The notes under the pieces were generated by a model that did no database searches, was not told the origin of the DNA, and worked only from the letters and a program-made list of their open reading frames with translations. From a virus, in IMG/VR virus record IMGVR_UViG_3300009187_000034, positions 1 through 48,320 of that record: a DNA stretch of 48,320 bases; one strand, 5' to 3'. Of the stretch, positions 17,101-48,320 are shown piece after piece. A program made the position numbers and the translations under genes. Position 1 is the first letter of the stretch. Each line of letters starts with the position of its first letter.

Positions 17101-20100
17101 GCTGTTCGTGGTGTAAATGCAATTCTTGATACAGCTCTTTCTTCTAAAGACCGCACAACATTTGAAGAAGCCAAACGTTTACTAGAAGAAGGCGTTAAAA
17201 CTCGTGATACTACTGACTACTCAGCCAGCGGTGTTGCTAAAGTTATGCCGGGCTTGGTAGACGCTATTAATGAACAAGCATATAGGGCGTCTTTAGGTAG
17301 AGAAATAGAAGCTAAAGAAACTTCACAAGCTATTGCCCGTGTTAAAGATGCGTTTGCTTCTCCAGTACAAACTGGTCCTAAAGGTAAAACCACTACTCAG
17401 CTAGAGTTTTTCCCGGGCGAAACAGCTACTATCAGGGCAGATGAAAAGAATTTAAGCCGCCTTGGGCAGCTTCGTAACGCTCGTGGTGCCGATGCTATTT
17501 CGTCAGGGCGTAAGTATTTTGCTGAGAAAGCTACTGGTGCGTTTAGACCAGCGGCTATGCTTAAGTATTTTGAAAGCCCTGAATTAGCCCAACTGCTTGA
17601 CACTGCACAAGAGCTGCAAGCTGAAGGTAAAAAATACGCAAGCAAAGCAAAAGTGCTTAAGCGGCAGTCTACTAAAGATAAATACCGTGCAATGGCAGAT
17701 GAAGCCTTTGCTATGTACGACGAGACTATGGTAGAAGTTAACGAGTACGTTGACTTTATTGAAGATTACGCACGTAAAGCTATAGAAAAAGCAGACAAGC
17801 CAGCTGCTTTTATTGCTGCGTTTGAAACACAAAAACAAACGGTACAAAAAGAACTTAGCAACGCTAAAAAAGTAATAGCTGCGCAAGAAGCTAAAGAGGC
17901 TGCTGCCGTAGAAGAAAAACTTACTGTTGCAAGAGCCAAACTTAAAAAAGCTAAAACAAGCGAAGAGCGAAACTTTTTGCTCGATGAAATTTCTGCTTTA
18001 GAAAAAACTAAAAGACCTGACATAGTAGACGAATTAGCCGCAGCTGAAAGAAAAGTGCGGGGCGCTAAAACGCTTAAACAAAAAATTGAAGCCCGTGCTG
18101 AGGTGCTTAAAATTCAAAGTAACGCTTTAGATAACGTTATTAAAGACACCAAAGAGCGTATTGCTGAAGAACAAGCTAGCGCTGCACAACAAACTGGATT
18201 AGGCTTACCGGGTACTAGAACTCAATTTAAAACACTGCCTCGTATGGAGGCAGAACTACCAAACCGTTTTCCAACAATTCAATCTAAATTTGAATTTGCT
18301 CGTACGTACTACAAAGAAATGCTTGCTGCTCGCAGCATGACTATGAACACTAAGCAGCGCCAAGCGCTTGTTGAAAAACGTAAAAAGTATGAAGACGCTG
18401 TAGTTAGTTTAGATAAAGCGTTTAAGCAGAACAACGTAGACAGCCGGATTGCCACCGTGATGCGCAACATGGTTACGATGGAAGAAGGTACGCCTCAGTA
18501 CAGAAAAGCTGAGAATTTAATACTAAGTATTGAAGAGCGTATTCAACAAGCTATTGCTGGTCTTAAACCTAAAACAGAAACTATTGCCATAAAAGGCGTA
18601 GAAACTAAAGAAGCTGTTGAAAACGAGGCTAAAGTAAAAGAAGTAATTGGAGAGTACTCATACGAAAGCGTTAAACCATCAGGTCCTGAACAAACCGCTG
18701 CTGAGAAAGCTGTTGGTCGCATATCTGAAACAGAACTGGCTAAGTTACGTAAAGTAAAACAAACCCGCTTTGACTTTGTTACCAAGCGTTTGGCAGATCA
18801 AAAAGCTCCAGTTGCAGATCGTGCTGCTCTTGTTGACGAATTACAGCGCAAAGAAAAAGGACCTAACGGACAAGAAATAACTGTTGGTCTTGAAGCTGAA
18901 ATTAAAGCTATTGATGAAATTCTTAACGCACGCCGTATTGGTATGGTTGTCGGTCAAGCGCAAGAAGAAAAAGGCTCTAAGAAGTACAAGGCAACTGTTA
19001 CTGAAAAAGAAATGGAGAAAGCCGGTAAGTTTGATAAAGCCGGTGTGCACCCAGAGTCTTATAGTCTTGTAGCTAAAGCATACAAAGACCGCACTGCTGA
19101 CAAACAAAAACGAGAAGCAAATAAAACCCCAGCAGCTGTAACAAAACTGATTAAAGAAATTGCAGCGCTTCAAACTGAAATTCAATACGACAACTTACCT
19201 GCTCCTAAAATAGTTGAGAAGATGGCGTTAATTTCCGATAAAAGAGCTCAAGTTGAACGTGCTACTTTAGAGTTTACCGAAACGCTAGAAGCCAAAAAAA
19301 TGGGTATCAGCGTTGAAGAGTACCGTCGTATCTTTAACTTTATGAACGCTGGTGAGTTTGTTTTTGACGCTGATGTCAGTCTTACTAAAGACCAAGTAGA
19401 AAAAGAAAACGCTAGAAGACGCAAAGAATCTGATGTTGATTTTCGTGTAGGTAGCGGTAAGTCTGTTGGTTTGCAAATGCTTAGAGCGGACGCTAAAGCT
19501 GTTGTTGACAAGATTAAGTTACCTAAAGGGCTTGACATTACTGTTATACAAGAGCTTTCTCCAATGGTTAAAGAGTACATCCGTACTCGAGGCGTTGACC
19601 CTGAGAGCGTTAAAGGCTTTGTAACTAACAACGGCTCTGTAGTTATTGTTGCAGGCAAGCACGAAAATGCCAAAGACGTTGAAGCTACTGTTGCCCACGA
19701 AGTTATTGGTCACTTGGGCGTTGAGCAAACGCTTGGTCAAGCCGGTATGGAAAAGCTGGTACAGCATATCACCGCACAAAAGGGCGGTGTAATGGGTCTT
19801 GCTTCTAAGCTAGGTGTTTGGAAAGAAGCCTATGGCGCATATGCTGCGGCTCTTAACTCAGGCAAAACCAAAGAAGAAGCCCAAGCCGATGCCGTGCATG
19901 AAATGATTGCGCACGTTGAAGAAAAACGTCCGGGCAGAAGTGGCTTTGAAGACTTTAAGGTTTTTGTTAAGGCGTTGGTTGGTGTATTGCGTGCGGCTTT
20001 GCGTAAGTTCAACATTAACCTTGACATTGATACAAACGACATCTACAAGATTTTGCGTGATGCTCGTAAGAATTTTGACGCTGTGTCTCCCGGTCTTTAC

Positions 20101-22752
20101 AAAAAAGAGAACGGCGAAATGCAATTTAACAGCACGCCTGCTGTGTTTGGTCCGGGTGGAGAGGCTTTCCAGCGTGCGGCTGATGCGCTTATGATTAAAC
20201 AAAGACCGCTTAAAGATCGTTTTTTTCCAACTAATATTGGCTTAACGATTGAGCAAAAGTTTATTAAAGCGTCTGCTGGTTTAATGCGTGTTTACGAGAA
20301 CACGGGTCTTTCTAAGACTGCTGATGCACTACAAACTCAATACTACATACAAAACCATAACCAACGATTTGCTTGGACTTCACAAGCTACAGCTCGTGGC
20401 GTACCAATTCTACGCAAAGAAGAAGGCGGTAAGGGGTTTGTTCTTGAATCTAAAGAAGGCCCTAGCTTAAAGAAACTTGCTGAAATTTTAGGCAAAGCTA
20501 ACTGGGGAAATGCAGAAGGCGTACGTAACGCATATAGCCTGTACAGAATAAGTAAGCGTGCTAAACGTGTTGGGCTATCTAAACTTGGCTTTAAGAAAGA
20601 AGAAGTCACAGAAAAGATGCTCAAGGATGTGGACGCAGCGGTATCTGCTAACAAACAACTAGCAGACATTTTTAAAGAAGCAGACGCTGTGTACGATCAG
20701 TACAACAAAAACTTAATGAACTTGTTGGTACAGACAGGGCGTATGTCTCAGAAAGTAGCTGACGACCTTACCAAACATAACGATTACATTCCGTTTTATA
20801 GGCAAGAAGCTAATGGCGATGTATACCTAGAAATTGGCGGTGCGCCTCGTATACAAGTTGGTAACTTAAAAGATCAGCCTTATTTAAATGAGTTGGTTGG
20901 TAGCGACGAACGTATCGTAGACATTTACCAAGGCGCTCTACAAAATACCAACATGGTTATGGATATGGCTTTGCGTAACCTAGCCACCCGTAATACCGCT
21001 TACTCTTTGGGCAAAATGGGTTTCCTTGAAAAAGGTAAGAACAAAGATGGTATTGGTATTCGCAAGGGTTTTGGAGAAACTAAAAATAATGTAATTCGTT
21101 TCTACGTACAGCCTGTTGACGAAAGCGATGATGGCAAACGTCATGTTATTTTGAAAGAAGATGTGGCTGGCGTACCTGCACAGTTTATTATTGAGGGCTT
21201 GGCTGGCGTTAATACATCTGTGCCGACGTTGATTAGTATGATGGGCGCTCCGGCAAGATTGTTACGCTCTTGGGTTACAAGAAGCCCTGTGTATGCTGCA
21301 CGGCAGGTTGTTCGTGACCCGTTCATTGCTGTTATGGCTAACGGTGTTGATGTTGGTGGTGCGTTGAAGGCTTTTAAGATTATGGGTCAAGCCATTACTG
21401 GCAAGCCTGTAGAAGATGAGATTGGTCGTCTTGGTTTGATTGGTAGCAACGTGTTTACCGGAACCAATGAAGATGTGCAGAAAATCATGTTACAGATTAC
21501 CAGCGGTAAAAAAGGCTGGGAATCTTACTTGGCTAAAGCAGATATGCTTGCGTTGCAAGGCGATGCAGCAACTCGTACAGCCGCATTTAATAACTTCCGT
21601 AAGCAAGGCTTAAGCGAAATAGAAGCAATTATTGCCACCTACGAACTGATGCCGTTTACTCAGCGTGGTACATCGTCTAGCTTGTATTTGCTTTCTACAA
21701 TGGTGCCATTTATGAACGCTCAAATACAGGGACTAAATGTCTTGTACAAAGCGTTTACAGGAAAGTCTACTTTCCAAGAGAAGTTGCGTATTAAAGAAAA
21801 GCTATGGCAGCGAGGTATGTTGATGTTTGGTATGTCTATGGCATACGCTATATTGATGAGCGAAGACGAAGCATACCAGAACGCTAACGACGATGAAAGA
21901 CTTAACAACTGGTTTGTATATGTGCCGGGTGTTGATGAGCCAGTACGTGTACCTATTCCATTTGAATTAGGTATTGTGTTTAAAGCGTTGCCTGAGACAA
22001 TTGTTAACATAGCAAGAGGCGACAGAACTGCTGCCGAAGGTATCAAGGGGTTGGGTAAGATGCTTGCTAACGCTGCGCCTATTGGACCAAGCTCAATACC
22101 GCAAGCCGTTAAAGCGCCGTTTGAAGTCATGGTAGATTACTCATTCTTTACACAACGAAGTATTGTTGGCGATCGTTTAAAAGATGTCGACCCTTCCGAG
22201 CGTTTTAATGCTAACACTTCTGAAATTGCCAAATTTATTGGTAAAGGCACAGGTCAAATCCCTATCCTTGGTGAGTACCTATCACCTGTTCAGATTGAGT
22301 ACTTGGTTCGTGGGTACACAGGCAGCTTGCCATTAGCCGTAGCTTCATTAACTAATCCGTTGTTTGGTAGCGAAGCCGGAGAAAAACCTACTTCTCGTGC
22401 TAGCGATTTACCTGTTGTTGGTTCTTTATTCCAACCTAAAGATGCCGGTGGTCTTATCAATCGTGCATACAAAGATATGGAAAGCGTTAACAGAGCTAAA
22501 GGGACTTACGACAAGCTGCTTGACGAAGGGCGTGAAAAAGAAGCTGACTCTTATGCAGATCGTTTTGCGGACATGCTTGATCTTGCGCCGCTTGCTGGGG
22601 ACTTCCGTTCACGTATGGGGCAACTTGCTAAAGAAGAACGTGAGATTAAAGCGGATCCAAGTCTGTCAGGTCCCGAGAAACGCCGTCAACTTGATGAGAT
22701 TCGTCAAGAACGCATTGAACGCGCTAAAGAGTTTATTAGCGAACGCGGGTAA
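14200..22752 (+). CDS. Giant internal virion / ejected polyvalent protein with predicted metalloprotease motif
   Basis: 2,850 residues, the largest gene here. Starts MPYLRLPDGSYMDVPEGVS. Residues about 105-150 are Ala/Gly hydrophobic (possible membrane segment). About 270-1,700 is mostly charged coiled coil. Around 1,780-1,960 is a predicted zinc peptidase: AHEVIGHLG with His1833, Glu1834, His1838, and a second VHEMIAHVEE with His1900 and Glu1901. The C-terminal 600 residues (e.g. LISMMGAPARLLRSW, SRASDLPVVGSLF, and an ending MxQLAKEEREIKAD) resemble large polyvalent protein-associated domain 38 and similar phage modules. By family analogy (T7 gp16-like role) it would be packed in the virion and enter the host with the DNA, and the protease could act on wall or host proteins. 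Activity and ejection are inferences. Ends 17 nt inside the convergent gene. Confidence 0.75.
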   Translation: MPYLRLPDGSYMDVPEGVSQREALAHAKEKYKDLFQPVEKPDTGLTGAAKASYQTLKGDVAALAGRAGLMDVGEAEKYQKERQAEAQRVFKPTEEGWTEAPFLKARELIGGSLPYMAAPIAVGGAAALGGAPVAAGAGLAGLASGLQFTGSNLSRQMNTGKALKDTDLMAAGAAAIPQAALDVVGFRFLPGVQKIFKSAGVELSEQAAKKVIEAGTLKTAGQYVVGGAKIGGIEGATEAGQQFFERLQAGLNIGDEQARKEYLESFIGGAVLGGIASPFGVAGKRGEAKDVIAKEQAKRDLEASKLAEEQQLADIQAKKDAELQAVQERKTKIEQMGLELYQAKPDLLKKLEELNTQAQRVTDLDELATLSQQAQDVQAQLNNLDPELVGANLKKLKKENDALKGQINKAEKDGNEDLRTELSTKYNENAAAIEEKALRLEALKYKPIVPPDVQKIQEKLNAAQKQLQKAKEQGDLVSVGRIVAKIKEYQSIPEYQEYAAEQKRIGEERSKRAATSADILAQEEQANQANEEIEAGNVVTMRKPPKKKYVDLPRLQQYYNSSVEQLNAKLAESSKAPALEIPEGQSAQETIAMVQQKFPEAFMSPEQRKNANINLPPADPEVQKLIKKVQDAKDMLEEHRPVTYSREQAKPDLAQQLVDKFTAPEQKLPTELTPEQKKAESARLAKLDGLKKDYYDSFDAYKKIIDESEAASQGTGKGKRLYGYNGRPLQASEKAIEAFNKYVEAKNAYLQVMSEGTPTPANAIKGLEAAQDVALLDLTDTIDSMRKGEFFGGPNPAAASSFLGTLAQKARTELEKYKEATLSQIDYVRQGRGMDALTEDAKAEINGQLESLLAGKIERATGKLARVLKAGEKAAPEDTAIRAAFEKAGFKFEPIATGEKEILTGFSREELADVKDAVNKIKDKALQKERKFGKLTRESTGDLFTEGRIKNTKKARKTDVELDDAEQAVRGVNAILDTALSSKDRTTFEEAKRLLEEGVKTRDTTDYSASGVAKVMPGLVDAINEQAYRASLGREIEAKETSQAIARVKDAFASPVQTGPKGKTTTQLEFFPGETATIRADEKNLSRLGQLRNARGADAISSGRKYFAEKATGAFRPAAMLKYFESPELAQLLDTAQELQAEGKKYASKAKVLKRQSTKDKYRAMADEAFAMYDETMVEVNEYVDFIEDYARKAIEKADKPAAFIAAFETQKQTVQKELSNAKKVIAAQEAKEAAAVEEKLTVARAKLKKAKTSEERNFLLDEISALEKTKRPDIVDELAAAERKVRGAKTLKQKIEARAEVLKIQSNALDNVIKDTKERIAEEQASAAQQTGLGLPGTRTQFKTLPRMEAELPNRFPTIQSKFEFARTYYKEMLAARSMTMNTKQRQALVEKRKKYEDAVVSLDKAFKQNNVDSRIATVMRNMVTMEEGTPQYRKAENLILSIEERIQQAIAGLKPKTETIAIKGVETKEAVENEAKVKEVIGEYSYESVKPSGPEQTAAEKAVGRISETELAKLRKVKQTRFDFVTKRLADQKAPVADRAALVDELQRKEKGPNGQEITVGLEAEIKAIDEILNARRIGMVVGQAQEEKGSKKYKATVTEKEMEKAGKFDKAGVHPESYSLVAKAYKDRTADKQKREANKTPAAVTKLIKEIAALQTEIQYDNLPAPKIVEKMALISDKRAQVERATLEFTETLEAKKMGISVEEYRRIFNFMNAGEFVFDADVSLTKDQVEKENARRRKESDVDFRVGSGKSVGLQMLRADAKAVVDKIKLPKGLDITVIQELSPMVKEYIRTRGVDPESVKGFVTNNGSVVIVAGKHENAKDVEATVAHEVIGHLGVEQTLGQAGMEKLVQHITAQKGGVMGLASKLGVWKEAYGAYAAALNSGKTKEEAQADAVHEMIAHVEEKRPGRSGFEDFKVFVKALVGVLRAALRKFNINLDIDTNDIYKILRDARKNFDAVSPGLYKKENGEMQFNSTPAVFGPGGEAFQRAADALMIKQRPLKDRFFPTNIGLTIEQKFIKASAGLMRVYENTGLSKTADALQTQYYIQNHNQRFAWTSQATARGVPILRKEEGGKGFVLESKEGPSLKKLAEILGKANWGNAEGVRNAYSLYRISKRAKRVGLSKLGFKKEEVTEKMLKDVDAAVSANKQLADIFKEADAVYDQYNKNLMNLLVQTGRMSQKVADDLTKHNDYIPFYRQEANGDVYLEIGGAPRIQVGNLKDQPYLNELVGSDERIVDIYQGALQNTNMVMDMALRNLATRNTAYSLGKMGFLEKGKNKDGIGIRKGFGETKNNVIRFYVQPVDESDDGKRHVILKEDVAGVPAQFIIEGLAGVNTSVPTLISMMGAPARLLRSWVTRSPVYAARQVVRDPFIAVMANGVDVGGALKAFKIMGQAITGKPVEDEIGRLGLIGSNVFTGTNEDVQKIMLQITSGKKGWESYLAKADMLALQGDAATRTAAFNNFRKQGLSEIEAIIATYELMPFTQRGTSSSLYLLSTMVPFMNAQIQGLNVLYKAFTGKSTFQEKLRIKEKLWQRGMLMFGMSMAYAILMSEDEAYQNANDDERLNNWFVYVPGVDEPVRVPIPFELGIVFKALPETIVNIARGDRTAAEGIKGLGKMLANAAPIGPSSIPQAVKAPFEVMVDYSFFTQRSIVGDRLKDVDPSERFNANTSEIAKFIGKGTGQIPILGEYLSPVQIEYLVRGYTGSLPLAVASLTNPLFGSEAGEKPTSRASDLPVVGSLFQPKDAGGLINRAYKDMESVNRAKGTYDKLLDEGREKEADSYADRFADMLDLAPLAGDFRSRMGQLAKEEREIKADPSLSGPEKRRQLDEIRQERIERAKEFISERG

Positions 22753-25805: not shown

Positions 25806-25973
25806 TTAATAACTGCGTGTTTGTACTATTTTGTCAGCAAAGCGGCGAACTAACTCTATTTGAAAATTCTTAGGCAAGCCTTGTGTATATACAAAATCTT
25901 CAGCAAAACGTAACAGTTCAAGATCACTAAGGGATGAGGCATGGATTGGGGTTTCTATTGGTGTTTGTTGCAT
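25806..25973 (-). CDS. Small 55-residue protein, unknown
   Basis: Translates as MQQTPIETPIHASSLSDLEL, then LRFAEDFVYTQGLPKNF, ending VRRFADKIVQTRSY: helical, acidic centre, basic end. The start codon lies inside the end of the upstream HTH gene (19-nt overlap) with a GAGG element about 10 nt before it, and it stops about 15 nt before the primase start. Overlap and tight spacing argue for a real coupled gene; no family recognised. Confidence 0.55.
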   Translation of the reverse strand: MQQTPIETPIHASSLSDLELLRFAEDFVYTQGLPKNFQIELVRRFADKIVQTRSY

Positions 25974-26221
25974 TGTCTTAGTGCCTCTTCTGATGTCTTG
26001 CTTGATTGGAGTATGTTCAACAAGGACTGCACACGCATCTTATATGCGTTGGTTACTTCGGTTCCGCTGAACCAGTTGTACACAGTTTGTCTTGTTGCGC
26101 CTGTAAATTTTGCTACTTCTATTACTGGGAAATCTAAGCTGATCGCCCACCGCCCCAACTGGTTGCCCAGCGTCTTAGGTGCGTTCTTTGTGGTGTTTCT
26201 AATTTCTTCTGAATAAGCCAT
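25955..26221 (-). CDS. Helix-turn-helix DNA-binding protein (XRE/Cro-like)
   Basis: 88 residues. LGRWAISLDFPVIEVAKFTG then ATRQTVYNWFSGTEVTNAYK is a clear HTH with recognition helix ATRQTVYNWFSG, followed by a short helical C-terminus. Size and single HTH fit a phage Cro-like regulator. Its position in the late part of the replication operon, without divergent promoters or integrase, suggests a regulator of replication or a switch to late expression rather than a lysogeny repressor (inference). The upstream 90 bp (26222-26311) contain no gene. Confidence 0.75.
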   Translation of the reverse strand: MAYSEEIRNTTKNAPKTLGNQLGRWAISLDFPVIEVAKFTGATRQTVYNWFSGTEVTNAYKMRVQSLLNILQSSKTSEEALRQCNKHQ

Positions 26222-34686: not shown

Positions 34687-34867
34687 AGCGTTTCCTTACC
34701 TCGTCAAGACGTTGCAGACAGATTACGATTTTATTTAGTTGTTGGTTAAGAATCTGTTGATCGCCAACTTGATACGACTTGAGCGCAACAATAACCTCAG
34801 CTTCAAGGTTACATAGTGCGGCGTTCTCACGCATCATCAATAGAACTTCACCTTCCGACATGGGCAT
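34664..34867 (-). CDS. Small helical protein, unknown
   Basis: 67 residues, almost all helical (LLMMRENAALCNLEAEVIVALK and QQLNKIVICLQRLDEVRK), a possible dimeric coiled coil. Has AAAGGAG 7 nt before the ATG. Overlaps the VRR-NUC start by 23 nt and the winged-HTH end by 20 nt, both larger than usual, but the strong ribosome-binding site supports it. Confidence 0.55.
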   Translation of the reverse strand: MPMSEGEVLLMMRENAALCNLEAEVIVALKSYQVGDQQILNQQLNKIVICLQRLDEVRKRYDTRSQS

Positions 34868-35150
34868 CTTTAATCTCCTTTAAAAACGATTGACCTTTAG
34901 CGCCGACAAAAAGATCTACACCCCGTCTGTCGTCTCTGTCTTGTTTCTCAAGCACAAACTTCTTGGCAATGAGTTTGTGTAAGTACTTGTGCGTGGTGGC
35001 TGGTGACATAACTGCTTGTGCTTCAGCTATCTTCAGTACTGACATTGTACCTAGCGGTGCTTCTGCATTAACCATGCCTAGTACATACTCTTCTTGCCAC
35101 GATATTTTGTGGCGGTTTCGTACTACTTGTGTATCGTATGCGTTACTCAT
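34848..35150 (-). CDS. MarR-like winged helix-turn-helix protein
   Basis: 100 residues from MSNAYDT (AAAGGAG 7 nt upstream decides the start over a longer frame to 35186). Helix SWQEEYVLGMVNAE, HTH TMSVLKIAEAQAVMSPATTHKYLHKLIAKKFV, and wing KQDRDDRRGVDLFVGAKGQ, the arrangement of MarR-type winged HTH domains. A small phage transcription regulator, target unknown; candidate binders for the dyad sites elsewhere in this window include this protein. Confidence 0.72.
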   Translation of the reverse strand: MSNAYDTQVVRNRHKISWQEEYVLGMVNAEAPLGTMSVLKIAEAQAVMSPATTHKYLHKLIAKKFVLEKQDRDDRRGVDLFVGAKGQSFLKEIKDAHVGR

Positions 35151-35436
35151 CTTCTTGCTCCTTTGGTTCTTCATCACACCTTTCAATTAGTGCGGCATAG
35201 CCACACATATCTACTAAGTTATCTCTATGGTCGGGGTCGTTGGCAAACCTAGCCACCTTAACTAACACCATCATTGCGGCAACATCTTTTGGTGTGATGG
35301 TTGAGTCTAAGTGCTTACGTGCATTTAAATACGCATCCCACATCACAGCTATGGTTTGCAAGTTCTTAGCTGGATGACCATACGTCTTCTCTCTGTCGCC
35401 ATAGATAAGAGCATTAGCTTCTTTTAATACGCTCAT
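35143..35436 (-). CDS. DUF6378-like phage protein
   Basis: 97 residues. ALIYGDREKTYGHPAKN then LQTIAVMWDAYLN, TPKDVAAMMVLVKVARFAND and HRDNLVDMCGYAAL match the conserved motifs of DUF6378 (GDRxxxYGxP...W...DVAxMMxLxKxAR...D...DxxGYAAL). These look like the all-alpha MazG-type nucleotide-pyrophosphatase pattern in general layout, but biochemical function is not established. Acidic tail EEPKEQEDE. Confidence 0.75.
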   Translation of the reverse strand: MSVLKEANALIYGDREKTYGHPAKNLQTIAVMWDAYLNARKHLDSTITPKDVAAMMVLVKVARFANDPDHRDNLVDMCGYAALIERCDEEPKEQEDE

Positions 35437-40974: not shown

Positions 40975-41829
40975 TTACTTGCTGATTGAAATAGTTGCAT
41001 TGCTTAGGTACGAGTCAACCGCACCATCGATCTTGTCGCTGACCACATCATCAATGCGATCGCCAACTGCATCACTCACCGCATCATCGAAGTCGAAGTG
41101 GTAGCTTGGGTCAAAGTTATTCTCGAAGTAAGACTCAACCTCACTCTCCACAACTTCTTGCACAGCGTCTTTGGCTAGGTCTTCGATGCCTGCCCCGATC
41201 AACTCATGTCGCACCAAGTCTTTGAACCAGTCTGCTTGTTGTAGTGTGAGTGATACGCATTCTTGGAGAGAATTCTCTCCAGCCTCGGGTTGGGCTTTAG
41301 ATTGGCTGATGACCGAAGTAAGAAGCTGAAGCTGGGTACAGATGTTGTTGATGATGTCGGCTAGGGTTGGGGTAGCCTGTGGTTCGGGTGCGCCGAGTGT
41401 ACCCCCGTGTGTGTACTGAATTGCATCAGGGTTTGGTAGGCGTATGTTGTCTACTATGTCCTGCATTGTTGGTTCGGGTATAGCCCTGTTCTCCACAAGT
41501 GAGTGCAATACTTCCTTGGTTTCTCTCGGCACTTCGGGTGCGTTAAGGTGGTCGAGTAATAGTTCTTTCAATCCGATATTTTCCATCTGCTTAAACTCCT
41601 CGTCTTGTTCGTGGGTTGTAGGTACTGCGTTGTTAAGGTCTTGCATTGTGAATGTGGTCATGCTGTTTCTCCTTGTGGTAATGGTTCGATTGATTTCATC
41701 TACTTCGGCGATAACCCACTCATCTGTGGGCTCAAAGATTTCCATAGCTATTTCGCAGGCATCTTCGGGACTCTCTGCCTCAACTAACTCAACGGAATAG
41801 CTAGCTACTACAACTCGGTACTCTTTCAT
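40975..41829 (-). CDS. Early protein with an internal second start; N-terminal 56-residue domain fused to an acidic helical protein
   Basis: 284 residues from ATG at 41829 (TAGGAG 7 nt upstream). Residues 1-50 form a small alpha/beta unit (EYRVVVASYSVELVEAES, PEDACEIAMEIFEPTDEWVI) like free-standing small phage proteins. At Met57 (41661) a second ATG is preceded by AAGGAG with 7-nt spacing, the operon's usual strong signal, so a 228-residue product is also expected. The remainder is acidic and helical, with a repeated C-terminal pattern VESEVESYFENNF / AVSDAVGDRIDDVVSDKIDGAV. A palindromic repeat (41265-41280) is translated here as GENSL. Function unknown. Confidence 0.65.
   Translation of the reverse strand: MKEYRVVVASYSVELVEAESPEDACEIAMEIFEPTDEWVIAEVDEINRTITTRRNSMTTFTMQDLNNAVPTTHEQDEEFKQMENIGLKELLLDHLNAPEVPRETKEVLHSLVENRAIPEPTMQDIVDNIRLPNPDAIQYTHGGTLGAPEPQATPTLADIINNICTQLQLLTSVISQSKAQPEAGENSLQECVSLTLQQADWFKDLVRHELIGAGIEDLAKDAVQEVVESEVESYFENNFDPSYHFDFDDAVSDAVGDRIDDVVSDKIDGAVDSYLSNATISISK
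41265..41280. repeat. GGAGAG-AATT-CTCTCC palindrome, copy 1
   Basis: Perfect 16-bp palindrome inside the preceding gene; in that reading frame it encodes Gly-Glu-Asn-Ser-Leu. See the finding on the seven copies. Confidence 0.9.
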
Positions 41830-42281
41830 ACGCTTTCTCCTATCGCTTGGTTGAACTGCTCGGATACACCTACTTCTACTTCTTCGCTACTATGCTTACT
41901 TCTAATCGTTACATACGCACCACCATCTGTGATGGCTATTTCCTGATGTCCTATACCACCCCACCCATTTTCTATATCACAGTCAATACCTAAATGAAAC
42001 ACGATTGATTGCGCCCCTTGAAGGGACTTGACTAGCCCTCGTGCCATCTTGTACTCCAATATGTAGTCGTCTTTGATCGTGACATCAATCCATACAGGCA
42101 GGTCGGTGTACTCGCTGTTGGTGTACATATCCTCGGTAAACTCGATGGGGTGTGAGCAGTCTTTCTTTAGCTCAGCCCATGCTTGCGCCCAATCTTCTTG
42201 CGTATCAGGGTCTGTTGGTGGTTCGCTAAGCCACTCGTTGTCCCCACTATGTAAGTACATGTATCGTCTGCTGTTACTCAT
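41826..42281 (-). CDS. Hypothetical acidic protein
   Basis: 151 residues from MSNSRRY, chosen because GAAAGGA lies upstream; a longer frame to 42404 reads through a separate membrane-protein gene in another frame. Acidic, with DWAQAWAELKKDCSHPIEF, PVWIDVTIKDDYILEYKMARGL, GGAYVTIRSKHS. ATGA overlap with the next gene. No family recognised. Confidence 0.6.
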   Translation of the reverse strand: MSNSRRYMYLHSGDNEWLSEPPTDPDTQEDWAQAWAELKKDCSHPIEFTEDMYTNSEYTDLPVWIDVTIKDDYILEYKMARGLVKSLQGAQSIVFHLGIDCDIENGWGGIGHQEIAITDGGAYVTIRSKHSSEEVEVGVSEQFNQAIGESV

Positions 42282-42283
42282 CT

Positions 42284-42418
42284 CTATTTCCTTTCTCCTA
42301 GTTCGCATAGTTTGGCTATGCACCATAACAACCCAGCAAATAACCCAAAGGTAAGACCAACGGATATAAGCCAAGCACCTATCTCCAACAACCAATACGC
42401 CCAATCAATTGCTTCCAT
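42284..42418 (-). CDS. Tiny membrane protein (44 residues)
   Basis: MEAIDWAYWLLEIGAWLISV, then GLTFGLFAGLLWCIAKLCEL and GERK. One long or two short hydrophobic segments (about residues 6-37) with an acidic N-terminus and basic end. GGAG 7 nt before the ATG; the start overlaps the upstream gene end by 14 nt and the stop lies 2 nt before the next gene's ATG. Small early membrane proteins in phages often block superinfection or host functions; not known here. Confidence 0.6.
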   Translation of the reverse strand: MEAIDWAYWLLEIGAWLISVGLTFGLFAGLLWCIAKLCELGERK

Positions 42419-42662
42419 GACTAAACTCCGAGTAGCCACAGTTCTCAACTAAATGGCGTGCCATATCACTAATGAGGGTTTCAATCTCATCTAGCACTTC
42501 GCCACCATACTTAAACTCCCACTCAGTCAACGCACTACTTACTTCGTTAATGCGTTCCCACTCAGCTACGCTATCGTCTCGTGCTGGTGGTGCGGTAAGG
42601 CAATGAATGATGTTAGGTAAGTCTTCTTCTAATGCGGTTTCATACTCTGTGTAGTAACTCAT
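42405..42662 (-). CDS. Hypothetical small acidic protein
   Basis: 85 residues, acidic and helical: YETALEEDLPNIIHCLTA, SSALTEWEFKYGGEVLDEI, METLISDMARHL-like end. ATGA overlap with the upstream gene. Early phage ORF of unknown role. Confidence 0.55.
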   Translation of the reverse strand: MSYYTEYETALEEDLPNIIHCLTAPPARDDSVAEWERINEVSSALTEWEFKYGGEVLDEIETLISDMARHLVENCGYSEFSHGSN

Positions 42663-43024
42663 ACCAACTCCTCCTCTCGTGCTAATACGCCTTCAATAAA
42701 CCCATTAACAAAGCTAGGCAAGCCATCATCAACGGGGTCGTGATCTTTTAGGTATAGCTTTGTAGCGTGTGCCTCTAACTCTTGTATGTACTCATCGTCA
42801 TACACCCAGTCGTATGTCTCAACAGGGCGAATGACGTATAGGTAGTTTGTGGTATCAACGCCATCTTTTGCGAACTTGAACTTCATGCGGTCGATCTCCG
42901 CTTTCGCTTCTTCTACATACAGATAGCCATACTTGGCATACACACATTTGCCAGCCAACCCACCATCAAATACATCTACTGTGTACGACTCGCCTTTCGG
43001 CACTTGCTTTAGTCTGCCTCTCAT
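42659..43024 (-). CDS. Hypothetical protein
   Basis: 121 residues; beta strand GESYTVDVFDGGLAGKCVYA, helix YVEEAKAEIDRMKFKFAKDG, then YLYVIRPVETYDWVYDDEYI and an acidic helical end. Strong AAGGAG site 7 nt before the ATG. A palindromic repeat (43062-43077) lies about 38 nt upstream in the mRNA and could pair with that site. Unknown function. Confidence 0.55.
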   Translation of the reverse strand: MRGRLKQVPKGESYTVDVFDGGLAGKCVYAKYGYLYVEEAKAEIDRMKFKFAKDGVDTTNYLYVIRPVETYDWVYDDEYIQELEAHATKLYLKDHDPVDDGLPSFVNGFIEGVLAREEELV

Positions 43025-43061
43025 AATGATTCTCCTTGTCTAATAGATTGTGCTAGTTGTT

Positions 43062-43077
43062 GGAGAGAATTCTCTCC
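43062..43077. repeat. GGAGAG-AATT-CTCTCC palindrome, copy 2
   Basis: Perfect copy in the gap between two genes, 7 nt after the stop codon of the 35-residue membrane protein. Confidence 0.9.
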
Positions 43078-43084
43078 GTCTCTT

Positions 43085-43192
43085 TTAAAACCACACCCAC
43101 AACATAAAGGCACGAAACATCTGTGCGATAAAGAAAAGTGCAACTAAAGCTAGCACCGCCCATATAAACCGATCTTCGTCCATCCATTTCAT
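43085..43192 (-). CDS. Tiny membrane protein (35 residues)
   Basis: MKWMDEDRFIWAVLALVALF then FIAQMFRAFMLWVWF. A single membrane helix (about residues 9-30) after an acidic N-terminus. ATGA overlap with the zinc-ribbon gene upstream. Second tiny membrane protein in this early region, unrelated in sequence to the one at 42284-42418. Unknown function. Confidence 0.55.
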   Translation of the reverse strand: MKWMDEDRFIWAVLALVALFFIAQMFRAFMLWVWF

Positions 43193-43830
43193 AATGCACC
43201 TACCTTTCTTCGTTTGATTAACTCGTTGATTTTGATGCTTGGAGAGATTTCTCTCCCGTCCTTTGCTTGCTCAAGCAAGTCTTGTCTTATTCGTTTAGCC
43301 TCTGCGTAGTTGTAGCTATGTTGATCTAGCAAAGCGTGTTGTAGGGGTGTTGCGTCTTCGGGCATTTGATTCTTGTATGAGTAGTAGCGGCTAGCATACG
43401 CCGTGACCTGTTTTTGTAGGTTTGTTTTAAGTTCATCTTGCCACAGGGTTCGCTTCTTCTGCCAATACTCTTTCATTACCTTTGCCCTTTTCTTGGGCAG
43501 GGCTTCACGCTTCTCGGCTATCAGGGCTTCGCCTATCGTGGGGTTCATGTCCCCGCTACTTATTTTATTTCTTATCTCTTTGATGCTTAGCGGTGTTCTG
43601 CGTTTGCGTTGGTTTCTACAGTCTTTGCACAATGAGCTGTACAGCGTGTGCCGTGTGGTTAGGTTCGGTTTGCGTAGCAACGCTTTGCTCTGTGCAAGGG
43701 TGAGCACCCGATGGAAATCTTTTTTGGGTTTGGTTTCACCGCAAGTTTTGCACAGAAGAGTGATGACCGAAGTTGGGAGAGAATTCTCTCCGAGTTGTGT
43801 GTTGACGGATTTTCCCTTGTGCTGGTGCAT
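43189..43830 (-). CDS. Zinc-ribbon basic protein, possible DNA-binding regulator
   Basis: 213 residues from MHQHKGK (AAGGAG upstream decides the start over a longer frame to 43899). CKTCGETKPKKDFHR (Cys27, Cys30) and SLCKDCRNQRKR (Cys68, Cys71) form a two-knuckle zinc ribbon of the kind placed in front of HNH nucleases, but no HNH core follows. The rest is basic and helical. First gene after the promoter region at 43911-43940. Two palindromic repeats lie within it, one perfect (read as GENSL) and one imperfect (read as GREIS). Confidence 0.65.
   Translation of the reverse strand: MHQHKGKSVNTQLGENSLPTSVITLLCKTCGETKPKKDFHRVLTLAQSKALLRKPNLTTRHTLYSSLCKDCRNQRKRRTPLSIKEIRNKISSGDMNPTIGEALIAEKREALPKKRAKVMKEYWQKKRTLWQDELKTNLQKQVTAYASRYYSYKNQMPEDATPLQHALLDQHSYNYAEAKRIRQDLLEQAKDGREISPSIKINELIKRRKVGAL
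43241..43256. repeat. GGAGAGATTTCTCTCC imperfect palindrome, copy 3
   Basis: One central mismatch to the 16-bp palindrome; inside the zinc-ribbon gene near its 3' end. Confidence 0.8.
43776..43791. repeat. GGAGAG-AATT-CTCTCC palindrome, copy 4
   Basis: Perfect copy inside the zinc-ribbon gene, about 40 nt after its start codon, read as Gly-Glu-Asn-Ser-Leu. Confidence 0.9.
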
Positions 43831-43847
43831 GATGTTCTCCTTAAAAA

Positions 43848-43865
43848 TCTGCCAATAGTCTACCA
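43848..43865 (-). repeat. 18-bp inverted repeat, left arm
   Basis: TCTGCCAATAGTCTACCA; exact reverse complement of 44131-44148. The left arm lies in the 5' leader of the zinc-ribbon gene, about 10 nt before its ribosome-binding site. Confidence 0.9.
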
Positions 43866-44130
43866 ATTCACTGCAGGTGGACGCAGTACTAGACGCCACG
43901 AGAAGTATACATTATAAGGCTTGAGAGATATAGTGACCAAGATATATACGAGTCACAGAGTTTTATTAAAGTAACTAAGTTTTTCAACAAGATTACTCTG
44001 TCCACTTTTTTCTCTCTTATTATTATGTATTCTATTCTCTTTTATATATATATAGGTAGGTTGCCAAGTTGACGCAATCATATTCTATATACCTTTGGGG
44101 GTGTCCACTATGTGTCCACTAGTGCTCAAA
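43866..44130. promoter_or_regulatory. AT-rich regulatory region with promoter and iterons, possible origin
   Basis: Within the 43831-44218 gap, no gene seen. It contains AT-rich and pyrimidine-rich tracts including a (TA)n run (about 44044-44054). TGTCCACT occurs three times: 43999-44006, 44102-44109 and 44113-44120. The last two are part of GTGTCCACTA units spaced 11 bp, one helical turn. Bounded by the 18-bp inverted repeat. Iterons, AT-rich DNA and inverted repeats are what replication origins or complex operators contain; which of these applies is not decided by sequence. Confidence 0.5.
43911..43940 (-). promoter_or_regulatory. Leftward promoter
   Basis: Reading leftward: TTGGTC (43940-43935), 18-nt spacer, perfect TATAAT (43916-43911); expected transcription start near 43904, about 75 nt before the zinc-ribbon gene. 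Confidence 0.55.
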
Positions 44131-44148
44131 TGGTAGACTATTGGCAGA
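44131..44148 (+). repeat. 18-bp inverted repeat, right arm
   Basis: TGGTAGACTATTGGCAGA; exact reverse complement of 43848-43865. The two arms point outward and enclose 265 bp. Confidence 0.9.
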
Positions 44149-44199
44149 AAAGGGGGTAAAAGGTGTTCTCCACAATAGCTTGCAGAGAACCTATGTGAT

Positions 44200-44215
44200 G
44201 GAGAGAATTCTCTCC
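44200..44215. repeat. GGAGAG-AATT-CTCTCC palindrome, copy 5
   Basis: Perfect copy 3 nt after the stop codon of the 71-residue gene at 44219-44434. Confidence 0.9.
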
Positions 44216-44218
44216 GAG

Positions 44219-44434
44219 TCATGCCCACTTAGAGCGAGCCAATGCGACTGTTGTCACAATGAACCAACCATCTTGAAAGCCATCATTAGCACCTAACTTC
44301 TTGAGTGCATTGAGTGCTGTCTTGTAGTGGTCGTGGCATTTCATTGTGCCGTCAGTATCTCGTTGGAATGAACAGATAAGCCCGTCCTCTTTGTAGATAA
44401 CATGATAGCCCGTTGGGTTGAGTTTCTTTTTCAT
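44219..44434 (-). CDS. Hypothetical small protein
   Basis: 71 residues: NPTGYHVIYKEDGLICSFQR strands, helix KTALNALKKLGA, closing strand GWFIVTTVALARSKW. AAGGAG site before the ATG. Followed by a palindromic repeat and the 43866-44130 regulatory region, so it may be the last gene of the rightmost early transcript. Unknown function. Confidence 0.6.
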   Translation of the reverse strand: MKKKLNPTGYHVIYKEDGLICSFQRDTDGTMKCHDHYKTALNALKKLGANDGFQDGWFIVTTVALARSKWA

Positions 44435-44438
44435 GGTG

Positions 44439-44597
44439 TTACTCCTTATGTTGTTTGTAAATGGTGATGCTGAACTGATTGAACGCTGACTGCATGGATA
44501 CTTCTACCTCTACTTCTTTGGGTTTTGTGCAGGGTTTCTGCACAACTTGTTGCTTAGCCTGAGCCTTAAGTAAGGCGCATTGTTGCTTGGTTAACAT
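44439..44597 (-). CDS. Small protein, unknown (52 residues)
   Basis: MLTKQQCALLKAQAKQQVVQ, then KPCTKPKEVEVEVSMQSAFN and QFSITIYKQHKE. AAAGGAG ahead of the ATG; spacing of 4 nt to the next gene. Start lies within the last codons of the small HTH-like gene. No family recognised. Confidence 0.55.
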   Translation of the reverse strand: MLTKQQCALLKAQAKQQVVQKPCTKPKEVEVEVSMQSAFNQFSITIYKQHKE

Positions 44598-44734
44598 GGT
44601 GATTCTCCTTTGTAGTGCTTCTGTAATATGGTTTCGATCTTTAGTACTGTGGTGCGTAGGTGCTTGGCAATGTATTCGGGAGATCGACCCTTGTGATACA
44701 TCAAGCAGACGATAAAGCTAGAGAACATAGTCAT
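44591..44734 (-). CDS. Small HTH-like protein (47 residues)
   Basis: MTMFSSFIVCLMYHKGRSPE, then YIAKHLRTTVLKIETILQKH, ending YKGESPC. SPEYIAKHLRTTVLKIETIL reads like a helix-turn-helix with recognition helix TTVLKIETIL. GAGGAG site, and an ATGA overlap with the upstream gene. Might be a minimal DNA-binding regulator; too short to be sure. Confidence 0.5.
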   Translation of the reverse strand: MTMFSSFIVCLMYHKGRSPEYIAKHLRTTVLKIETILQKHYKGESPC

Positions 44735-44955
44735 ACTTGCTCCTCGTATGTTCTGAACCAAAAGGCTAGGCTTTCGTGTGTGCCAGACCTATTATCAGAC
44801 GGCTCGTTACTAAACCGCAGTACATACTGATGGTCGCACTTGTACATATCCGCAGGCTCATACTTTTGAATAGGCACAAACACAGTACCCAAGAACTGAC
44901 AGGCAGGACAATCGTGTTCGTACAAAGGTGTTGCTAAGTGTTTCATTGATGACAT
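44731..44955 (-). CDS. Small protein with Cys-pair, unknown
   Basis: 74 residues: EHDCPACQFLGTVFV has a CxxC knuckle and a later KCDHQYVLRF could supply further metal ligands. AAGGAG site before the ATG. A palindromic repeat lies about 22 nt upstream in the mRNA, able to pair with the ribosome-binding site. No family recognised. Confidence 0.55.
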   Translation of the reverse strand: MSSMKHLATPLYEHDCPACQFLGTVFVPIQKYEPADMYKCDHQYVLRFSNEPSDNRSGTHESLAFWFRTYEEQV

Positions 44956-44977
44956 GGTGTTTCTCCTTCGTTGGTTG

Positions 44978-44993
44978 GGAGAGAATTCTCTCC
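44978..44993. repeat. GGAGAG-AATT-CTCTCC palindrome, copy 6
   Basis: Perfect copy 4 nt after the stop codon of the gene at 44998-45225 and upstream of the next ribosome-binding site. Confidence 0.9.
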
Positions 44994-44997
44994 GAGG

Positions 44998-45225
44998 TTA
45001 ACCCCACACAGAGATGTGTGAAGTGAGTTCATACGACAAGCGATCGTGGAGATCGTCCCAATCATATGTGGTGAGCCTGTGCTTTTGATCTCTAGCCAAC
45101 TCAATGAGTTTGGCAAGGTCTTGCGGAGACATGGACAATACAACGCTGTTCCGCTTGAACTCTTTGTAGTCAATGGCTATTGGCTTAGCCTTCTTTGGGA
45201 TTGGTTTTGCTGGTGCTTTTTGCAT
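44998..45225 (-). CDS. Hypothetical small basic protein
   Basis: 75 residues. Basic N-terminus (KAPAKPIPKKAKPIAIDYKE), then helical SPQDLAKLIELARDQKHR and TTYDWDDLHDRLSYEL. No known domain. The 87 bp upstream (45226-45312) hold no gene. Confidence 0.55.
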   Translation of the reverse strand: MQKAPAKPIPKKAKPIAIDYKEFKRNSVVLSMSPQDLAKLIELARDQKHRLTTYDWDDLHDRLSYELTSHISVWG

Positions 45226-45312
45226 GATTAACTCCTGTGTTGTGGTACTTGTTGGTGGGAAAGGGCAAGACTTGACACGAAACTAAACAGCCTTGAAGCC
45301 TCGCCCTCTCGG

Positions 45313-45735
45313 TTACTTGCGTGAAACACGCTTGAAAAACTTCTCCTGCTGAGCTTTAGTCATTGACTCAACCAAAGCCAAAGCCTGCTCCACAACATCT
45401 ACCTGAGCTGATACTGTTGCTGAGTCCTTCTTAGTCTCAGGGCGAATGATGTGATACCTAAAGTCAGAATAGGCTCTTGAATAGGCGTTGTTGTGCTCCT
45501 TGTTGCGTTGAGTACGGCTCTTGGAGAGAATTCTCTCCGCAACTTGTTGCGTAACATCTAATTGACCCATCAAGTGTTGCGTGACCCACTCCTTGAGCCT
45601 GTCGGCTCGTGTTGTGCTGTCGGCTTTCTTGTACTCCAAATGCCACACAAGAGATGACTCACGCAACAAGCGGGCTTGAGTGCCTAGACCAAAGGCGAAT
45701 TGTGAATAAGATACAACGATTGAGTTTTGTTTCAT
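45313..45735 (-). CDS. Hypothetical protein, first gene of the early operon
   Basis: 140 residues, helical, basic: QARLLRESSLVWHLEYKKAD, LKEWVTQHLMGQLDVTQQVAERI, and a C-terminal VEQALALVESMTKAQQEKFFKRV. AAGGAG site. A perfect palindrome is embedded in a different frame from the other genes (read as ERILS). Directly downstream of the leader RNA and terminator at 45757-45951, so its expression may depend on readthrough. Unknown function. Confidence 0.6.
   Translation of the reverse strand: MKQNSIVVSYSQFAFGLGTQARLLRESSLVWHLEYKKADSTTRADRLKEWVTQHLMGQLDVTQQVAERILSKSRTQRNKEHNNAYSRAYSDFRYHIIRPETKKDSATVSAQVDVVEQALALVESMTKAQQEKFFKRVSRK
45523..45538. repeat. GGAGAG-AATT-CTCTCC palindrome, copy 7
   Basis: Perfect copy inside the 140-residue gene, here in another reading frame than in the other coding copies. 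Confidence 0.9.
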
Positions 45736-45756: not shown

Positions 45757-45789
45757 TAAAAAAAATCGGCTGAAAACTTCTCAACCGAT
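45757..45789 (-). terminator. Intrinsic terminator before the early operon
   Basis: Reading leftward: ATCGGTTGA / TCAGCCGAT stem (9 pairs including one G-U), 7-nt loop, then a run of eight T. Strong rho-independent terminator, only about 20 nt before the first early gene start codon. Confidence 0.8.
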
Positions 45790-46100: not shown

Positions 46101-46217
46101 ATGTTTGATTTCACTAAACAAACCAAGCAGTTCGAGCAGTTGGCAGAGCGCATCAAGGAAGTAAACGATTTTTGGATCGACGCTTTTATTTCAAGCATCA
46201 AGCAGTTCACTAAGTAA
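46101..46217 (+). CDS. 38-residue helical protein between the divergent operons
   Basis: MFDFTKQTKQFEQLAERIKE then VNDFWIDAFISSIKQFTK. Amphipathic helix, superficially phasin-like at its start. AAAGGAG 7 nt before the ATG is among the best ribosome-binding sites in the window, and a strong hairpin follows 5 nt after the stop. No family recognised. Confidence 0.55.
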   Translation: MFDFTKQTKQFEQLAERIKEVNDFWIDAFISSIKQFTK

Positions 46218-46222
46218 TAAAA

Positions 46223-46247
46223 AACCCCCACGTCTTAGGTGGGGGTT
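46223..46247. terminator. Strong GC hairpin, terminator better placed for leftward transcription
   Basis: AACCCCCAC / GTGGGGGTT, 9 perfect pairs, 7-nt loop. On the minus strand it is followed by TTTTTTATT; on plus only by TTCAAAA. Sits just after the 38-residue gene. It would block antisense transcription coming from the right, or act as a poor terminator or 3' end stabiliser for the plus transcript. Confidence 0.6.
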
Positions 46248-46387
46248 CAAAAAATGCCCTACTAATCAACACCAACGCCCAAACGAAGGAGGAAAAGCGC
46301 TGGTAAACAAATTATACACAAAAACTAAAAAACAATATATACTCCAGCCATACGTGAGCACCACACGCAACCAAAGGGGAATAGCAT

Positions 46388-46968: not shown

Positions 46969-48320
46969 GTGGATTTAGATTTTTTAACTCCCGAAGAAGC
47001 CTTGGCAGCACAAAAGGCACTCAAAGACATGAATAAAGCGCAAAAGATTGCATATCTGAATCTTTTGGAGAAGAAAGAAGAGCGCGGTAATTTAAAACTA
47101 GCGCAGACAAGCCCGATAGAGTTCGCAAAACGCGTATATCCTGGGTTTAAAGTAGGCCCGCACCATAGAAGGTTAGCTAAAATCTTCCAAGACGTAGTCG
47201 ATGGTAAGAAAAAGCGGGTTATTATTAATATTGCACCACGTATGGGTAAGTCGGAGTTTTCTAGCTACCTGTTTCCCGCCTATTTTTTAGGCAACTTCCC
47301 ACACAAGAAGATCATTATGGGAACCCATACGGCGTCTCTCTCCGAAGACTTTGGTCGACGGGTAAGGAACTTAATTGACTCAGAAGAATACAGAGAAATC
47401 TTCCCAGATACCGTTGTTGCGGCGGACCAGAAAGCGGCTGGGAAATGGAGTACAGGTGCTGGTGGTCAGTATTATGCTGCTGGTGTCGGAGGCGCTCTTG
47501 CCGGACGGGGTGCTGACTTATTTGTTATTGATGATCCACATTCCGAACAAGATATGAAGGCTAACAGCCGCCTAGCGTTTGACAATGCGTGGTCTTGGTT
47601 TCAAACAGGTCCGTTGCAACGTTTAATGCCAGGTGGTGCAATCATTGTGATCATGACTCGATGGAGTTTGTTAGATTTGACTGGGCGCTTGCTTGACTAC
47701 CAGACCAAAAACCCAGAAACCATACCTTGGGAGATAGTCGAGCTGCCAGCTATCATGGACGCCGGTACGGAAAATGAGAAATCTTTGTGGCCTGCGCAGT
47801 GGAGCCTAGAAGCGTTAAAAAATACCCAGCAGTCCATTGACCCACGGTACTGGAACGCCCAGTACATGCAAAATCCCACTAGTGACATGAGCGCATTAGT
47901 TGGAAGAAAAGATTGGAAGATATGGGAAGACGATGATCCACCCAAGTGTGAGTACGTAATCCAGTCTTGGGATACGGCGTTCGAGACAAAGAACAACTCA
48001 GACTATTCTGCTTGCACAACCTGGGGTGTTTTCTACGATAACGAGGATAAACGCAACCCCAACATCATCTTGCTAGACGCTTTTAAAGACCGCATGACCT
48101 TTCCAGAGCTAAAGCAAATTGCACTCAAACACTACAAAGAGTGGACGCCAGATGCTTTCATTGTGGAGAAAAAGGCGGCGGGTGCGCCGTTGATACAAGA
48201 GCTGCGGTTGATTGGAATACCTGTACAAGAATTTTCTCCATCCAGAGGCAACGACAAGATGGTCAGATTGAACGCTGTAGCTGATCTGTTTACAAGTGGT
48301 AAAGTATGGGCACCAGATAC
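46969..48320 (+). CDS. terL: Terminase large subunit (runs off the window)
   Basis: About 450 residues visible from a GTG start 2 nt after the small-subunit stop; the C-terminus lies outside the window. ATPase: Walker A INIAPRMGKSEF, Walker B ADLFVIDDPHSE, and coupling-like IVIMTRWSLLDLTGR. RNase H-like nuclease: QSWDTAFETKNNSDYSACTTW with its metal Asp, and DAFIVEKKAAGAPLIQ with its Glu. The enzyme packages phage DNA into proheads. Portal and capsid genes presumably follow outside. The sequence ends GKVWAPDT at the edge. Confidence 0.92.
   Translation, partial: MDLDFLTPEEALAAQKALKDMNKAQKIAYLNLLEKKEERGNLKLAQTSPIEFAKRVYPGFKVGPHHRRLAKIFQDVVDGKKKRVIINIAPRMGKSEFSSYLFPAYFLGNFPHKKIIMGTHTASLSEDFGRRVRNLIDSEEYREIFPDTVVAADQKAAGKWSTGAGGQYYAAGVGGALAGRGADLFVIDDPHSEQDMKANSRLAFDNAWSWFQTGPLQRLMPGGAIIVIMTRWSLLDLTGRLLDYQTKNPETIPWEIVELPAIMDAGTENEKSLWPAQWSLEALKNTQQSIDPRYWNAQYMQNPTSDMSALVGRKDWKIWEDDDPPKCEYVIQSWDTAFETKNNSDYSACTTWGVFYDNEDKRNPNIILLDAFKDRMTFPELKQIALKHYKEWTPDAFIVEKKAAGAPLIQELRLIGIPVQEFSPSRGNDKMVRLNAVADLFTSGKVWAPD

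Follow-up and report, generated by a model that had tools for sequence, protein, structure and literature searches.

Dispersed palindromes in a phage early operon as candidate operators of the product of its first gene

The virus record IMGVR_UViG_3300009187_000034 of IMG/VR, whose 48,320 nucleotides are here called the window, carries seven copies of the 16-bp palindrome GGAGAG-N4-CTCTCC in its early operon. We propose, with a probability of roughly 0.7, that these palindromes are operators of a dimeric, sequence-specific protein encoded by the phage itself, the product of gene 45313-45735, and that this protein would regulate its own gene and, like the repressors that bind mycobacteriophage stoperators, damp the operon by acting as a roadblock. 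Relatives of the window phage have palindromes of their own, and comparison of sequences indicates that the palindrome follows the first early gene and not the kinship of the phages. We infer with high confidence that the first-gene protein binds the palindrome; that it would do so as a dimer is suggested by the dyad alone, and repression by roadblock appears to be the likeliest function.

Results

An earlier note on this DNA, made from its letters without database searches, had reported seven copies confined to positions 41265-45538, and a mismatch search and window shuffles bear this out. All seven occurrences in the 48,320 bases lie within that interval, where shuffles lead one to expect 0.03; outside it the window holds no copy with one arm mismatch, nor any further match at three or fewer mismatches. 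Six copies are perfect and the seventh, at 43241, has a changed spacer (GGAGAGATTTCTCTCC). The early genes of the window are oriented on the minus strand, and the putative operators are placed as follows.

41265..41280, copy 1 (perfect): within gene 40975-41829, codon phase 0
43062..43077, copy 2 (perfect): intergenic, 7 nt past a stop codon and 37 nt upstream of gene 42659-43024
43241..43256, copy 3 (spacer ATTT): around codon 192 of the HNH-like gene, in phase 1; GGGGAC or GGGAAC dyads stand here in orthologues
43776..43791, copy 4 (perfect): within the HNH-like gene at codon 14, phase 0
44200..44215, copy 5 (perfect): intergenic, 3 nt past the stop of gene 44219-44434
44978..44993, copy 6 (perfect): intergenic, 4 nt past the stop of gene 44998-45225 and 22 nt upstream of the start of gene 44731-44955
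45523..45538, copy 7 (perfect): within the candidate regulator gene 45313-45735, coding for part of AERILS, phase 2

The three intergenic copies thus follow stop codons as closely as the note had said. It was also right to place four copies inside genes, though these cover all three codon phases where it had counted at least two frames. That the palindrome is not an ordinary terminator holds as well: an intrinsic terminator calls for a GC stem followed by a T-run, no copy has a T-run beside it, and the copy at 43062 fits a loose terminator pattern solely on the strand opposite to transcription. Rfam returned one sub-threshold match, which we treat as noise. A chance repeat is rejected by the window shuffles and by the family-wide control described below. 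A host repeat is rejected by the frequency of the 16-mer across 84,980 prokaryotic species (one genome per species, 257 Gb): it occurs in 87 stretches, always as a single copy, where 4^16 predicts about 60. The viral contigs with multiple copies are relatives of the window phage.

These relatives were gathered in IMG/VR with the large terminase (46969-48318) as query, which returned several hundred related contigs, all metagenomic and mostly partial; 175 distinct loci were analysed, with the terminase as the yardstick of phage kinship.

46969..48320, plus strand: large terminase gene, cut by the end of the window

Upstream of the terminase, every 6+6-bp dyad present in three or more copies was recorded. 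A dyad of the phage's own, in at least three copies and in the same early region, was found in 138 of the 175 loci, and in 95 of the 100 with at least 4 kb of upstream sequence (median 5 copies); no such dyad turned up in 100 first-order Markov resamples or in 62 regions taken from downstream in the same phages. A dispersed element of this kind, which the earlier note had considered unusual for a phage operon, is therefore the rule in this family. The dyads fall into about 40 types of arm and spacer and are nearly uniform inside each phage. Arms include GGGGAC, GGGAAC, GGACAG, GGATAG, GTGGAG, GTGCAG, GCAGAC, GGGTCA, TGTGTG and GTTGAC, among others, each with a typical spacer length, and as perfect dyads the sites measure 15-17 bp. 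There are mostly 3-9 copies per phage, in the early region; in long records they stay within about 4-9 kb of the start of the early operon. The cultured phage MinM2, with its own dyad GGTTCAG-N-CTGAACC, is the sole case in which sites run through most of the genome, whilst the first 50 kb of the records of HTVC027P, HTVC023P, 023Pt_psg01 and DSL-LC04 contain no such dyad. A lone GGAGAGAATTCTCTCC site stands next to a conserved flank, CAACAAGTAGCACAAA, in loci L015, L018, L024, L030, L032 and L033. At least L015 and L032 clearly have a different dyad of their own, and the lone GGAGAG sites resemble remnants of a former specificity or of past gene exchange.

A gene-by-gene table of identities brought out 34848-35186, 40975-41829 and 45313-45735 as the genes whose identity goes with the palindrome. 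Of these, 45313-45735 alone is present nearly throughout, in 144 of the 175 loci when sought by its C-terminal motif, and also in MinM2.

45313..45735, minus strand: candidate palindrome-binding protein, first gene of the early operon, 140 amino acids
45445..45708, minus strand: predicted helical N-terminal domain (N-domain), residues 10-97, which tracks the palindrome
45445..45501, minus strand: last helix of the N-domain, residues 79-97, putative recognition helix
45478..45480, minus strand: codon of residue 86, serine in the window phage, which matches arm base 4 across relatives
45322..45396, minus strand: C-terminal helical hairpin, residues 114-138, a motif shared by the family and exchangeable between N-domain types

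Across pairs of phages, identity of the N-domain rises with similarity of the palindrome (Spearman 0.41, and 0.39 as a partial correlation given terminase kinship). The largest value among permutations was 0.05, none of 499 reached the observed correlation, and the small terminase, as a control, gave 0.12. Pairs whose large terminases (TerL) are at least 88% identical have an N-domain identity of 0.69 when they share similar palindromes and of 0.14 when they do not. When all gene families with at least 20 phages were scanned in the 10 kb upstream of the terminase, the first-gene family ranked first with 0.48, followed by two families at 0.36, one of which consists of open reading frames (ORFs) antisense to the small terminase gene. 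The N-domains form nine types under average linkage (single linkage chained them all together), most of them with a palindrome architecture of their own; distant GGAGAG phages have their first-gene type in common, and C-terminal modules have been swapped between N-domain types.

The correspondence extends to single residues. Among 31 non-redundant proteins with the N-domain type of the window phage, residue 86 fully accounts for base 4 of the arm: lysine goes with C (9/9), methionine with T (5/5) and serine or tyrosine with G (10/10), while asparagine or aspartate goes with GGGG arms, in which bases 3 and 4 are GG. The adjacent residue 87 is threonine in GGGGAA proteins and alanine in GGGGAG proteins, and both residues sit in the putative recognition helix (residues 79-97). 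On the tree the switch between lysine with C and methionine with T has occurred about three times independently, in the sister pairs L155/L158, L422/L423 and L159/L436 (one pair with low node support), and lysine to methionine is the sole N-domain change that all three pairs share. The first-gene protein also predicts the palindrome. In a held-out set of 25 phages without a previously detected dyad, 21 contained the palindrome belonging to whichever phage had the closest first-gene protein, compared with 1.2% for other motifs.

Where orthologous genes can be aligned, different palindromes occupy the same positions. The place homologous to 44200 reads GGGGACAAGTGTCCCC in the close relatives L122/L127 and GGAGAGAAGTCTCTCC in L123. 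Around codon 192 of the HNH-like gene the window phage encodes DGREISPS and L127, with a GGGGAC dyad, SGTNVPTD; these other residues at the same place lead us to reject protein-coding constraint as the source of the repeat. At codon 154 of more distant HNH-like orthologues, GGACAG phages encode TETCP and GGATAG phages IETYP. In the first gene, the codons for AERILS or ADRILS hold GGAGAG, GGACAG or GGATAG, matching the specificity of each phage, so that the same arm switch from GGACAG to GGATAG costs two replacements in one gene (TETCP to IETYP) and is silent in another (ADRILS). Since both arms change together, something must read the dyad.

A site lies no more than 150 bp upstream of the first-gene start in 64 of 112 phages, and the next lies 0-8 bp past the first-gene stop in about 80. 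Overall, 67% of sites fall in ORFs, compared with 88% of random positions, and 20 of 27 sites in MinM2, judged at positions above 24382 only, are outside genes, in a part of the genome where intergenic DNA makes up 9%. A first gene flanked by sites, together with this avoidance of coding sequence, fits autoregulation and control along the operon better than a purely structural role.

AlphaFold predicts, for the first-gene type of the window phage, an all-helical N-domain (confident), a loose linker and a C-terminal helical hairpin; the GGGTCA type is modelled as two helices, a beta hairpin and a further helix, followed by a similar C-terminal hairpin (pLDDT 86 for both). Homologues among cultured phages are confined to the group of MinM2, Pag-Yong1 and Pra-JY27, and tblastn searches with three other first-gene types found no relative among cultured phages. 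MinM2 has a second copy of the first-gene protein, 39% identical, next to a MoxR gene (L204:28283-28804; 48282-48803 of the record).

Discussion

The operator model can be put as follows. The helical N-domain would read the arms, 6 bp each, mainly with its last helix (residues 79-97), and the C-terminal hairpin would probably be the oligomerisation part, perhaps for dimerisation. The protein probably represses its own promoter, and occupancy of several sites along the early operon would probably damp or block elongation, as at the stoperators of mycobacteriophages. Specificity would change often, with the whole set of sites, coding sequence included, being rewritten to match. A broader proposal, to which we give somewhat less than even odds, is that the first-gene proteins are a new DNA-binding family of unsolved fold with dozens of specificities, used for superinfection exclusion or early shut-off, whose turnover proceeds by domain replacement and by single-residue switches, with every site following.

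Several observations weigh against the operator model. Most sites lie away from promoters, so simple promoter repression cannot be the main job. The window phage itself has no site upstream of its first gene, and a terminator-like hairpin stands there instead. No first-gene match was found in 31 of the 175 loci. Phage pairs are also not independent of one another, a problem limited by the permutation test and by the repeated switches. The Pfam and PHROG searches gave no convincing family match for the first-gene products and no recognisable DNA-binding family, no relative of the protein was found in the PDB, and neither AlphaFold model has a fold neighbour there. Finally, a search of 22 records, many of them 58-67 kb long, gave no tyrosine integrase and no serine recombinase or resolvase. 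Classical lysogenic immunity is therefore not indicated, and a rapid turnover of specificity would rather serve early shut-off, carrier-state immunity or the exclusion of coinfecting phages. The terminator-like hairpin of the window phage lies close to where an operator is found in many relatives:

45765..45789, minus strand: hairpin plus T-run resembling an intrinsic terminator, by pattern only; the putative early promoter lies on one side of it and the first gene on the other

The same protein and sites might serve another purpose, in that they organise, partition, protect or mark the DNA, in the manner of ParB/parS or a nucleoid protein, or exclude coinfecting relatives. The position of most sites off promoters, with about two thirds inside genes, would suit such a role, as would the spread of sites through most of the MinM2 genome and a specificity that diversifies as self/non-self recognition would. 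In the long records, however, the sites keep to about the first 4-9 kb and the first gene is flanked by them, for which operon control is the better fit, and we consider this alternative unlikely, though to be taken seriously.

Very improbable, in our view, is a role of the palindromes as 6-bp RNA hairpins, acting in attenuation, protection of RNA ends or masking of ribosome-binding sites, perhaps with an RNA-binding protein. The arms are always complementary, and the sites 3-7 nt past stop codons in the window and 0-8 nt past the first-gene stop in about 80 phages are where such hairpins might be expected. However, asymmetric spacers occur in two orientations relative to transcription (259 versus 299; for example AAAC 33 times and GTTT 28 times), and 65 of 127 phages have the same spacer in both directions. 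A protein binding the hairpin would meet different loops, and the site is therefore read as double-stranded DNA. Moreover, the arms are fixed whilst the loop is free, arms switch between phages in step with a protein residue, there is no U-run, and coding copies occur in all three phases. The equal use of both spacer orientations and the presence of sites in coding sequence in every frame likewise count against the earlier suggestion that copies fold onto the ribosome-binding site of the next gene.

It is scarcely likely that the true binder is another regulator, the winged-helix protein 34848-35186 or the helix-turn-helix (HTH) protein 25955-26221, with the first gene merely travelling alongside. 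Identity of the winged-helix protein is 96% with the relative that shares the palindrome and 42-57% with relatives that have others, but just 8 of the 28 records searched, which are mostly palindrome-bearing, gave a homologue; the HTH protein is 100% identical between GGAGAG and GGGGAC phages. Neither explains the match of residue to base or the first-gene type shared by distant GGAGAG phages, and both were rejected as readers. The proposal of the earlier note that the palindrome is the operator of a dimeric regulator is thus strongly supported, with 45313-45735 as the candidate cognate gene in place of the HTH and MarR-like (winged-helix) proteins it had put forward. The divergence of the winged-helix protein between otherwise close relatives (96% versus 42-57%) is unusual in its own right. 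Lastly, the chance that the palindrome is a small mobile element (REP- or MITE-like), as the earlier note had also suggested, is next to nil. Copies within one phage are dispersed and near-identical, but the unit is the 16-bp dyad only, the rest of the genome has no copies, and orthologues show no empty sites at the same codons but other palindromes, with both arms rewritten.

One of the closest known parallels to the operator model is found in Cluster A mycobacteriophages such as L5 and Bxb1, in which phage-specific stoperators are dispersed along the genome, their consensus varies with the repressor, residue-to-base correlations have been proposed and a site lies near the regulator's own promoter (PMC3029335, PMC6550527, PMC9283540). 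These stoperators are 13-bp, asymmetric and oriented with transcription, and are bound by a monomeric helix-turn-helix repressor of temperate phages (PMC3029335, PMC6550527, PMC9283540). The window-phage family resembles them in its many dispersed copies of one phage-specific site for a candidate regulator, and in a consensus that varies together with that regulator. Unlike stoperators, its sites are perfect dyads, 15-17 bp long, that show no orientation (259 versus 299, as above); the protein has no Pfam, PHROG or PDB match and its models no solved neighbours, and no integrase was found among the 22 records.

Cluster O mycobacteriophages (Corndog) provide another parallel: five close genomes share a 17-bp repeat, TGTTCGG-N3-CCGAACA, in more than 30 copies genome-wide, for which binding by a dimeric protein was predicted, the cognate protein being unknown and transcription control thought unlikely (PMC4351075). 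Those repeats have a free A/T-rich spacer and intergenic as well as some coding copies, dense in the leftward operon, in phages without an integrase (PMC4351075). The sites described here are likewise perfect dyads with a free spacer and no orientation, in intergenic and coding positions, with no integrase found; unlike Cluster O, a single family has dozens of motifs, mostly 3-9 copies in the early region, a candidate gene and a residue code. Their logic is thus shared with Cluster A stoperators and their type of site with Cluster O palindromes, whereas the protein family appears to be undescribed.

Other systems offer looser comparisons. Lambdoid CI and Cro are phage-encoded dimers that bind short dyads with specificities diverging between relatives, but they are helix-turn-helix proteins whose operators cluster at promoters; here the sites are dispersed along the operon and the predicted fold matched nothing solved. 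The operators of ParB (parS) and KorB are palindromic, dispersed and of similar length. In contrast to the highly conserved parS, the palindromes of the window-phage family diverge rapidly, and no ParB Pfam family was found in the first-gene products, the genome's other genes not having all been scanned for ParB.

If the first-gene protein is indeed the reader, it provides a named candidate gene for a puzzle open since Cluster O, namely what reads dispersed palindromes that lie off promoters. The family would also supply a natural collection of variant sites, each paired with its protein, so that the recognition code of a seemingly undescribed family could be derived and tested by single substitutions, and an example of a regulator that changes specificity even though many sites, some of them coding, must change with it.

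Several further features of the window are recorded here. Within the early operon, an AT-rich intergenic stretch of about 300 bp (43846-44152) lies between inverted repeats TCTGCCAATAGTCTACCA, whose arms vary in concert in L122/L127 (TCTGACAATAGTCTAGCA); it is possibly an origin or a non-coding RNA. At 46102-46248 a tiny plus-strand ORF (MFDFTKQTKQFEQLAERIKEVNDFWIDAFISSIKQFTK), phasin-like in appearance, is followed by a strong terminator hairpin. A single ORF of 2850 amino acids (14200-22752) makes up 18% of the window.

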